Shown piece after piece: positions 19,715-46,480 of a stretch of 64,000 bases of DNA (the first letter of the stretch is position 1; the number at the start of each line of letters is the position of its first letter). The stretch covers positions 682,001 to 746,000 of the forward strand of contig NC_013526.1 of assembly GCF_000025005.1 (NCBI RefSeq). Direction: 5' to 3'. A program made the translations under genes and the position numbers. The notes beneath the pieces are model-generated. The model saw nothing but the letters and a program-made list of their open reading frames with translations. It was not told the origin of the DNA and did not search any database. The DNA comes from Thermobaculum terrenum ATCC BAA-798 (GTDB lineage: Bacteria; Chloroflexota; Chloroflexia; Thermobaculales; Thermobaculaceae).

Positions 19715-20858
19715 GGTCCGCTTCGGGATCATAGGGGCGGGGCTGATGGGGCGCGAGTTCGCGGTCGCCTCCGCCCGCTGGCCTGCCCTGCTGGACCTGG
19801 ACGTCGCCCCCGAGATAGTTGCCGTGTGCGACGTCGACCCCGCGGCCTTCGCCTGGTACAGGGAGCGCTTCCCGTCCGTCGCGCTCTACACCCACGACTA
19901 CCGAGAGCTGCTGGCCAGCGACGAGGTGGAGGCGGTGTACTGCGCGATCCCGCACAACCTGCACGCTCAGGTGTACGTGGATGCCATCGAGGCTGGCAAG
20001 CACCTGCTGGGCGAGAAGCCGTTCGGGATCGACCTGCCAGCCTACGAGCGCATCATGCGCGCCGTGCGGGCGCACCCCGAGGTGCTGGTGAGGGTCTCCT
20101 CGGAGTTCCCCTTCTACCCAGGAGCCCAGAGGATCGTGCAAGCGGTGCAGCAGGGGCGCCTGGGCAGGATCATAGAGGTCCGCGCGGGCTTCCTCCACTC
20201 CAGCGACCTGGACCCCAACAAGCCCATCAACTGGAAGCGGAGGGCCGATACGAACGGCGAGTACGGCTGCATGGGAGACCTCGGCATGCACGTGGTCCAC
20301 CTGCCCGCGCGCTTCGGCTGGCTGCCCAAGAACGTGCGGGCGCTGCTCTCCAACATCGTGCCCGAGCGGCCCGACCAGCAGGGACGGATGGTGCCCTGCG
20401 ACACCTGGGACAACGCCATCCTGGCCACGGAGGTGGAGGCGGAGGACCAGAGCTTCCCGATGATCCTGGAGACCAAGCGCATATCGCCCGGGGAGACCAA
20501 TACGTGGTACCTGGAGGTCATGGGGACGGAGCGCTCGCTCGCGTTCAGCACCAAGCGCCCCAGGACGCTGCGCTTCCTGGAGTACCGGCCCGGCGGCGAG
20601 CAGGCCTGGCAGTCGCTGGACCTGGGCCACGAGAGCGTGTACCGGACCGTGACAGGAGGCATCTTCGAGTTCGGCTTCCCCGACGCGATCCTGCAGATGT
20701 GGGCGGCGTTCCTGGACGAGCTGGCGCACGGAGAGGAGATGATCGGGGGCTTCAGGTGCGCCACCCCCCAGGAGGCGGGGGTGAGCCACAGCCTGTTCAC
20801 CGCCGCGCTGGAGTCGCATCGCACCTCTGCGGTGGTGCCTGTGGGGGCAGGAGGGTAG
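19701..20858 (+). CDS. Gfo/Idh/MocA-family NAD(P)-dependent oxidoreductase
   Basis: 385 residues. The N-terminal Rossmann motif is FGIIGAGLMGREFA. The second signature, AVYCAIPHNLHAQVYVDAIE, leads to the conserved GEKPFGI containing the catalytic-region Lys of the EKP motif. The C-terminal alpha/beta domain contains GCMGDLGMHVVHLPARFGW, with the substrate-site His. Members oxidise or reduce sugars, sugar acids or inositols. It overlaps the aldolase gene by 14 bp and lies 6 bp before the kinase gene, placing it firmly in the sugar operon. The substrate is unknown. Confidence 0.88.
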   Translation: MPRRRVRFGIIGAGLMGREFAVASARWPALLDLDVAPEIVAVCDVDPAAFAWYRERFPSVALYTHDYRELLASDEVEAVYCAIPHNLHAQVYVDAIEAGKHLLGEKPFGIDLPAYERIMRAVRAHPEVLVRVSSEFPFYPGAQRIVQAVQQGRLGRIIEVRAGFLHSSDLDPNKPINWKRRADTNGEYGCMGDLGMHVVHLPARFGWLPKNVRALLSNIVPERPDQQGRMVPCDTWDNAILATEVEAEDQSFPMILETKRISPGETNTWYLEVMGTERSLAFSTKRPRTLRFLEYRPGGEQAWQSLDLGHESVYRTVTGGIFEFGFPDAILQMWAAFLDELAHGEEMIGGFRCATPQEAGVSHSLFTAALESHRTSAVVPVGAGG

Positions 20859-42581: not shown

Positions 42582-43697
42582 TCATCCCGAGATGGTCACC
42601 CCTATCAGCCGCCCGACGCCGTAGGTGAGCAGCGCTGCGGCCAGCCCGATCAGCACCTGCCGTAGTCCCGAGTGGGCCGCGTTGCGTCCGGTCAGCAGCG
42701 TGATCGCCGCACCGATGAGGAACAGCGCAAGCGTGCTGAGCACCAGGCTGGCTCCCACGGCCATGATCCCAGAGAGCCACATGAACGGCACGACCGGCAC
42801 GATAGCGCCGAGCGCGAACAGGAAGAAGGACGTACCCGCCGCCACCCATGCGGACCCACCTAGCTCTTCCGGATCTATACCCAGCTCCTCGCGGGAGAGG
42901 GTATCCAGCGCCGCCCCCTGGTCCGCCAGCAGCCTGCTAGCTAGGTCACGGGCCTCCTGCTCGGGAAGGCCCTTGGCCTGGTAGATCAAACGCAGCTCCT
43001 CCTCTTCCTCCTGCGGTATCTCCCGCAGCTCCGCGGCCTCGATCTGGATCTGCCGCTGGTACAGCTCGCGCGCGCTCTGCACGGAGAGCCACTCGCCCAT
43101 CGCCATCGAGCCCGCACCCGCCAGCAGCCCCGCAAGCCCCGTGATCAGTATGGATCGACCCGAGAGCTCCGCACCCGCGACACCCATCACGAGGCTGAGG
43201 TTAGAGACGAGGCCGTCGTTGGCTCCCAGCACTGCCGCGCGCAGCGCGTTCCCTCCTGCCGCCCGGTGCCGACCCTCCAGCTGCGCAAGCGCCGGTCCCT
43301 GTAGTCCCCCAGCGGAGATCGTGCGCAGGATCCGCGCGTGGGAGAGCTCCTCGCCCGACATACCGGTGCCGATGGTCTCCACCTGCCCCGAGTAACCATG
43401 ACTGTCCGCCCGCTCCATGTCGGCGATCGTCGGCAGCACCGCCTGGGGGCCCAGCCAGTAAGCCAGGCGCATCAGCACGCGCGTCCGCCAGCCCGGGCGC
43501 GCTGGCGGTACTGGCACCCCTGCTGCCTGCAGCTTGCGTGCCCAAAACTCGGCATGTGCCTGCTCCGTATCCGCCAGCCTCCTGTACACCTCGGCCAGCT
43601 GCTGGTTACGCTCCGCCCTCGACAGTGCCCTGTACAGCGCCGCGCTGTCCACTTCATCCTGCCAGTTGTGCCGATATCGCTCCACTTCCTGCGCCAT
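42582..43697 (-). CDS. VIT1/CCC1-type iron transporter with N-terminal ferritin-like domain (MbfA-like)
   Basis: 371 residues. Residues 1-150 form a ferritin/rubrerythrin-like four-helix part with EVDSAALYRALSRAE, DTEQAHAEFWA and GEELSHARIL; its acidic and His residues suit a di-iron site. The C-terminal part is a VIT/CCC1 five-helix transporter (RAAVLGANDGLVSNLSLVMG, GAGSMAMGEWLSVQS). Proteins of this fusion type (MbfA) export iron and protect against peroxide. The start at 43697 has GGAGAAGG upstream; an earlier ATG pair at 43733 overlaps a TATGAT box and lacks a ribosome site. Confidence 0.88.
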   Translation of the reverse strand: MAQEVERYRHNWQDEVDSAALYRALSRAERNQQLAEVYRRLADTEQAHAEFWARKLQAAGVPVPPARPGWRTRVLMRLAYWLGPQAVLPTIADMERADSHGYSGQVETIGTGMSGEELSHARILRTISAGGLQGPALAQLEGRHRAAGGNALRAAVLGANDGLVSNLSLVMGVAGAELSGRSILITGLAGLLAGAGSMAMGEWLSVQSARELYQRQIQIEAAELREIPQEEEEELRLIYQAKGLPEQEARDLASRLLADQGAALDTLSREELGIDPEELGGSAWVAAGTSFFLFALGAIVPVVPFMWLSGIMAVGASLVLSTLALFLIGAAITLLTGRNAAHSGLRQVLIGLAAALLTYGVGRLIGVTISG

Positions 43698-43742
43698 CAG
43701 CCTTCTCCATACACAGTGCTTTTGGTCCATCATAGCAAGTTA

Positions 43743-44714
43743 TCAGCGGCTGATCCTTCGTGCGGGGAGCTTCTCCAGGATGTTGCTTATTATGTGGATC
43801 ACGATCACGGTGGCAAGCACGGCGAACGTTCCAAAGCCCACTATCGGGCCCATGACCTCACCCGTGCTGAATCTGACTCCCGACCGCACCTGCTGCAGCG
43901 TCTGAAGGCCGATCATCGGTGCCAGGAATATCTCCAGCACGAGCAGCGGCAGTGCCATCAGGTAACCCATGGGGCTGCGTTGCCATATCAGGACGCCAGC
44001 GCAGGCCACTGCGGGCACAATGACCGCCATGTCCAGCGCGTTGGTGAACAGGGTAGTCTAGGTATCCCAGTCTTGGGGTGACTCGTGCTGGATGAGCGAG
44101 GATACTGGCTCTATAAGCCATATGGCTAGGGTCACCATGCCGCTTGCCAACAGGAAGAGGGCTGGCACGCGGCGCGGCATGTGGACCGAGCAATGGGTCC
44201 CCAGCACCTGCGGATCGATAGACCTGAAGGCCAGGAGCAGCGTCCAGAGACTTGCCGAGAAAAGCGCGACCTACAACAGGCACAGCTTGTGGTAGGCGAC
44301 GTTGAGCGCGTAGCTTGCGTAGACGTAGAGGAAGTAGATGAGCGCCCCAAGGAGCAGCAACCCACCGCGCAGAGATCCGCGACGATAGAGAGTCAGCGAG
44401 GCCAGGAGCAACGGTATACCCAGCAGCGAGGTGAGGTCGGTACCCATGTTTCCCGCGCCCTGGAAAAGCGTGTCGTAGCGGTAGAGACCTCGCCCGTGAA
44501 TCTCGGCCGTCTGTCCCCGCAGCGTCTCGTAGAGGTAAGATCTCCCCTCGCCTTGCCACAGCAACCCGATTGCCGTCGCAACGGCCGCAAGCAGAGCGAC
44601 CAGCAACGAGAGGCCCACGACCGCGCCGGATACCCTGACCGGCACGTCCCGAGGACTGTACCCACGCGTAATTGTATGTTTTTGACAGACCAGTGCTTCC
44701 GCATCGCCGGTCAT
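43743..44714 (-). pseudogene. Multi-helix membrane protein gene interrupted by two in-frame TAG codons
   Basis: 324 codons from ATG (AAGGAGG upstream) to the final stop, all in one frame except TAG at 44273-44271 and TAG at 44059-44057. The three parts together give eight membrane helices: GAVVGLSLLVALLAAVATAIG, then LGIPLLLASLTLY, LLLLGALIYFLYVYASYAL, a helix right after the first TAG (VALFSASLWTLLLAF), one before the second, and three after it. The intact paralogue at 45611-46480 has the same layout and carries tyrosine at the first TAG position (CLL-TAG-VALF versus FPLYWAI) and near the second (DT-TAG versus NTY). Either two nonsense mutations or stop-codon readthrough explains this. Confidence 0.8.
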
Positions 44715-44840
44715 GATGATCCTCCTTAGCTCTGCATCAAGCCCCGATGAAGCCCGCGCAGGTAAAGAGCTGGGACATGAACTCCAACCATCAACTCGCG
44801 GCCACAGCAGCAGTGGTACGCCAACAAACACCTCGGTACG

Positions 44841-45610: not shown

Positions 45611-46480
45611 TCACGCCGCTTGCCGGATCACCGCAGCATCCGCAACGTCCCTCGTATGAGTCGCATATAGCAGAAGCCAGCAAGCGGCCAGCACGGCCAG
45701 AGCCACGGTGCCTATGGCCGTGATCACGAGGAAAGGTACACTGGCAAAGGGATCTCTCCTGATCGCCATCGCTGCTGCCATCCCGGCCACTGCGCCAGCT
45801 TCGCACATCAGGAACCCCAGCAGGCCGTACACCGCTCTGGTAGCAGATCGCCTGCGCATGAGAAGGCCCATGCCAGCGGCCAATGCCGCCGGGATGACGA
45901 AGGCCGTATCCAGCAGCCTAATGACCCAGTAGGTGTTGGGGTCGCCCAGGTACTCCTGGCTAATGTTCGAGCCCGAGAGCACATCCCAAATGGACTTGCT
46001 CCAGGTCAACCCCAGCAGGACTCCCAGGAGTATGAGCACGCCCGAGGTCGTCCACCTTAGTCGGGTCCCCGGCTCGGGTATCTCCCGCCGCGACAGCCTC
46101 GCCCAAGCTGCCAGGGCGCTGGAGGCAGCCAGCACGGTGATCGCCCAGTACAGGGGGAAGAACCGCTCGTTGTTGCCCGGATACCTTGCGTAGTCGACAC
46201 CCAGGACCAGCGAGAAGGCCAGGTACAGGGCATACAAGCTTGGAGCAAGCGCGAGGGGAGGAGCCAGATCGTGCCCTCTGATCGCCAGTAGCCCGGCAGT
46301 TATGGCCATAGGAGCCACGATCAGGAGCGACACTATCTCGCCGCCCACCAATTGTGTCTCTGCACTGGCTGATACCCGGAACCTGATCACCTCCAGGACG
46401 AGCGGTCCCAGCAGCGAGCTGGCCGCCACACACGTGCCCAGCAGGATCAGCCCGAGCCCCCACATACGTTCACTCCTCAC
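45611..46480 (-). CDS. Eight-helix membrane protein, intact paralogue of the interrupted gene
   Basis: 289 residues from the GTG behind AAAGGAGG (an ATG at 46465 behind GAGGAG is the alternative). Eight membrane helices. Shared with the interrupted gene: a GGEIVSLLIVAPM segment (versus GTDLTSLLGIPLL), YALYLAFSLVLGVDY, ERFFPLYWAITVLAA and RLLDTAFVIPAALAAG (versus NALDMAVIVPAVACAG). I know no function for the family. It is first in a leftward series of membrane, PspC, flavodoxin and iron-transport genes. Confidence 0.7.
   Translation of the reverse strand: MRSERMWGLGLILLGTCVAASSLLGPLVLEVIRFRVSASAETQLVGGEIVSLLIVAPMAITAGLLAIRGHDLAPPLALAPSLYALYLAFSLVLGVDYARYPGNNERFFPLYWAITVLAASSALAAWARLSRREIPEPGTRLRWTTSGVLILLGVLLGLTWSKSIWDVLSGSNISQEYLGDPNTYWVIRLLDTAFVIPAALAAGMGLLMRRRSATRAVYGLLGFLMCEAGAVAGMAAAMAIRRDPFASVPFLVITAIGTVALAVLAACWLLLYATHTRDVADAAVIRQAA

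Follow-up and report, generated by a model that had tools for sequence, protein, structure and literature searches.

A membrane-protein gene of Thermobaculum terrenum interrupted by two in-frame TAG codons is probably a fairly recent pseudogene

The DNA analyzed here, referred to below as the window, is a stretch of 64,000 nt corresponding to positions 682001-746000 of contig NC_013526.1 (C2) of the Thermobaculum terrenum genome. The apparent remnant of a membrane-protein gene is located on its minus strand at 43743..44714. The frame opens with an ATG at 44714 and closes with a TGA at 43743. Translation yielded 323 codons followed by the TGA. Codons 148 and 219 are the only internal stops; both are TAG, and there is no frameshift, as had been claimed in a preceding sequence-only reading of the window. 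The positions given there held for the first stop (TAG1, 44273-44271) but were one base off for the second (TAG2), which was read as 44059-44057 and is located at 44060-44058. The same reading predicted eight membrane helices, and these were backed by hydropathy and by the structure modelled with confidence for an intact homologue (pLDDT 92.8), in which there are eight long helices and, following helix 1, two short strands. G+C content by codon position remained gene-like downstream of each TAG. A strong Shine-Dalgarno-like sequence, AAGGAGG, is found at 44721..44727 on the minus strand, 5' of the ATG at 44714. The first approximately 25 residues of the frame (44640-44714) have no counterpart in the homologues, whose starts lie near codon 26, and the strong ribosome site is placed 5' of this stretch that the homologues lack.

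Two further genes lie near the frame on the minus strand. The next gene downstream (42582-43733) encodes a rubrerythrin-like domain joined to a VIT1 family transporter domain. An intact gene at 45611..46480, put forward earlier as a paralogue, proved to be a real but remote one, with a pairwise BLASTP E value of 0.042 against the frame and a profile-profile probability of 99.4% (E 1e-21). The family of this paralogue usually has Tyr at the position equivalent to TAG1.

The nearest relatives of the frame were 52–53% identical to it over approximately 286 residues (E ~1e-87), contained no internal stop and aligned across both TAGs. A profile built from 46 intact homologues matched 43743-44714 on the minus strand at E 4e-88 with the two TAGs inside the match, and this was the sole place in the genome that it matched. 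The match was essentially full length, covering model positions 6-290 of 294 (alignment A4). A genome scan added 71 further loci, most of them labelled Chloroflexota; the profile used for the scan was that of a closer subset, since the full set of 26 relatives diverged too much to be used in this way. Scans of genome and viral contigs with the protein by itself found no relatives. Judged by sequence, the frame is a genuine member by descent of an unnamed family of eight-helix membrane proteins found mainly in Chloroflexota. Neither Pfam nor NCBIfam assigned the protein or its relatives to a named family, and the family-model search returned weak EBP and NuoJ-like matches to them. Fold searches with the homologue model were middling at best (best Z 7.5, Foldseek E 0.11), with partial likeness to the TARP and EBP folds; naming a function from these matches was dropped as they were too weak.

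Several homologues were of note in their own right. One of them (L012 in G047, 1486-2064) lacks the N-terminal third and is possibly another decayed copy. In the genomes of two relatives, two diverged copies of the family are arranged in tandem (L048, 1504-3231; L049, 1492-3219). Four homologues (L138, L151, L154 and L159) were found in contigs labelled Spirochaetales or Sphaerochaeta, which may reflect either gene transfer or mis-binned contigs.

The residues that the two stops replace were evaluated in an alignment of 98 homologues, none of which has a TAG at either column. TAG1 (codon 148, 44271..44273 on the minus strand) falls where helix 4 starts and corresponds to Tyr122 of the modelled homologue L094. 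The sequence-only reading had taken both stops to stand at tyrosine positions. At TAG1 the case for this is strong, as Tyr is invariant at this site in 98 of 98 homologues, encoded by TAT in 59 and by TAC in 39. TAG2 (codon 219, 44058..44060 on the minus strand) is located in the loop before helix 6, where the column is variable (Thr 42, Tyr 29, Val 8, Ser 6, Ala 5, His 4 and single others, n=98). Ser is present in the two closest relatives and Tyr in the next nearest, and the ancestral residue was likely Ser or Tyr. The claim of two tyrosines was consequently only half supported. Two stops that came up among the homologues were discarded: a TAG in G088/L050 is upstream of the start and hence not internal, and a TAA in G066 lies beyond the core, at the C terminus.

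Further changes were concentrated around TAG1. The strongest local motif of the family, N-x-x-F-x-x-Y, is represented in the frame by His, Cys and a stop at its three positions. Codon 142 (44289..44291 on the minus strand) encodes His where all other members covering the site have Asn, and codon 145 (44280..44282 on the minus strand) encodes Cys where 94% of members have Phe, so that the Asn and Phe losses both lie no more than six codons from TAG1. In helix 2, a codon is missing at the junction 44423..44424 on the minus strand, a gap shared among approximately 98 members only with the truncated L012. The branch leading to the frame carried 0.88 changes per column compared to approximately 0.29 for the nearest relatives, about three times as many, although this length may partly reflect the distance between taxonomic families. 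A leave-one-out tally of conserved-column losses placed the frame above most but not all relatives, and it is thus the clustering of losses in the motif, not their total, that marks it out. Taken together, the loss of the motif Asn, Phe and Tyr, the one-codon gap and the long branch give moderate support to relaxed constraint on the frame. The lost motif suggests that 43743-44714 belongs to the family by descent and not as a working member.

The pair of identical stops was itself of little diagnostic value. Two identical nonsense changes had been regarded as unusual for decay, but 54–55% of the single-base nonsense changes reachable in this gene give TAG, so that two TAGs are unsurprising (p ~0.3). 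The absence of a frameshift among two lesions is mildly unusual, with a probability of 0.02–0.18 for assumed indel-to-substitution ratios of 0.2–0.05, and these values apply to a case that was chosen by eye from a genome for which 41 pseudogenes are reported (PMC3035366). The stop pattern needs no special mechanism.

Set against the intact homologues, which have no stop in the aligned core, the two TAGs break the frame, and the frame at 43743-44714 is in all probability a fairly recent pseudogene of the Thermobaculum lineage. The proposed course of events is that the invariant Tyr codon became TAG by a point change in this lineage, that a second codon, whose ancestral residue is uncertain, also became TAG, and that substitutions at two other motif positions and the loss of one codon came in addition. 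RF1 would then end translation at codon 148, and the resulting product of 147 residues, which would span three helices out of eight, is probably degraded. We infer the loss of function, its recency and, in the living cell, termination at codon 148. The decay does not appear to be old since 19 of the 22 near-invariant positions, and with them most other conserved sites, are kept. The gene is dispensable in the class, as most relatives lack it: a member of the family is carried by no more than 28 of the 158 genomes in the class, T. terrenum itself included (27 others). The features that speak against a pseudogene are the lack of a frameshift, the conserved sites kept, the gene-like G+C and the even identity to the nearest relative in the three parts of the frame (55%, 47% and 46%); these fit recent decay and would also fit a gene in use.

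The main rival explanation, which we consider unlikely, is sequence error: the gene would be intact, and at least one of the TAGs would be a miscalled base in the deposited finished sequence. Public genomes have been documented to contain spurious internal stops (PMC11017572), and the three motif losses fall within seven codons and could each have arisen from the family consensus by one transversion; such a cluster could indicate a stretch of poor sequence quality. The T. terrenum YNP1 genome, however, which is made up of two chromosomes of 2,026,947 and 1,074,634 bases, was finished with 9.5x Sanger and 31.8x 454 coverage and polished with Illumina reads to a stated error rate of less than 1 in 100,000 (PMC3035366). 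At this rate, approximately 0.01 errors are expected in the 972 bases of the gene, and error would have to account for two stops 213 bases apart in addition to the loss of two more motif residues and the one-codon gap.

Readthrough or suppression of both UAGs, whether through a suppressor that escaped detection or through misreading by a near-cognate tRNA, would provide some full-length protein from a gene still in use. The otherwise intact frame, the strong ribosome site and the gene-like composition past both stops are compatible with this, and there is a report of bacterial in-frame stops that are conserved, with dN/dS <1 (PMC7918605). Amber suppression, which the sequence-only reading had raised, was nevertheless not borne out. 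A CTA anticodon is absent from all 46 tRNA genes that were found, and GTA is the anticodon of the single tRNA-Tyr; tyrS is likewise present in a single copy. The best match to pyrrolysyl-tRNA synthetase (pylS) scored 26.9 bits against a cut-off of 178, and most control genomes also showed weak matches. RF1 (prfA) is present (539 bits). In a gene call based on codon usage, the 51 genes called in the window ended in TAG in 26 cases, TGA in 22 and TAA in 3, which agrees with the earlier remark that TAG serves as a normal stop here. TAG as the commonest stop in the window (1-64000) is unusual for bacteria. No internal stop was observed in 177 other domain matches to ABC transporters genome-wide (77 to the PF00005 ATPase and 100 to the PF00528 permease), and RNA structure after the two TAGs was no better than in shuffled sequences (z 0.41 and 0.74), giving no readthrough signal. 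Of the internal-stop candidates flagged elsewhere in the window by coding score, the one examined, at 20856, turned out to mark the boundary between two separate genes, an oxidoreductase that ends there and a sugar kinase that follows. Two successive readthrough events would be needed, and stops read as Tyr would still leave the motif lacking its Asn and Phe. Based on these results, readthrough or suppression is very unlikely, and full expression by readthrough of two UAGs, the first of them at an invariant Tyr site, in an organism that has no amber tRNA for the purpose is more improbable still. If true, it would bear on the fidelity of UAG termination in a thermophile that uses UAG as its main stop.

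Least likely is that the 147-residue N-terminal product with its three helices is a functional shortened protein: it has a good ribosome site and start, and the N-terminal part is the best aligned (55% identity to L046), but the stop falls inside the most conserved motif of the family, where helix 4 begins, the Asn and Phe of that motif have been replaced in the part that is kept, and no homologue was found that stops at the TAG1 site.

Read as a pseudogene, the locus is an ordinary finding, and its meaning is limited largely to annotation. It clearly illustrates gene loss in a family of membrane proteins to which neither Pfam nor NCBIfam gives a name. It also advises caution, in that two identical stops are no surprise where most of the reachable nonsense changes produce that stop.

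Compared to known systems, the frame resembles systems of amber suppression and UAG recoding in having in-frame TAGs within an otherwise open frame, one of them at a Tyr site. It differs from those systems in that neither an amber tRNA nor PylS was found in T. terrenum, which has RF1 and uses TAG as its main stop, and in that the genes tested contain no further internal stop. To the unnamed eight-helix family of Chloroflexota, intact in Chloroploca, Chloroflexus and Anaerolineae, the frame shows sequence likeness over its full length; in the family members examined, a single frame stays open and carries the N-x-x-F-x-x-Y motif, whereas the T. terrenum copy is without all three motif residues. 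Bacterial nonsense pseudogenes share with the frame homologues that are recognizable across the stops, lost conserved residues, a longer branch and a normal set of release factor and tRNAs, and the frame differs from them in that it has no frameshift yet and in that both of its stops happen to be TAG.
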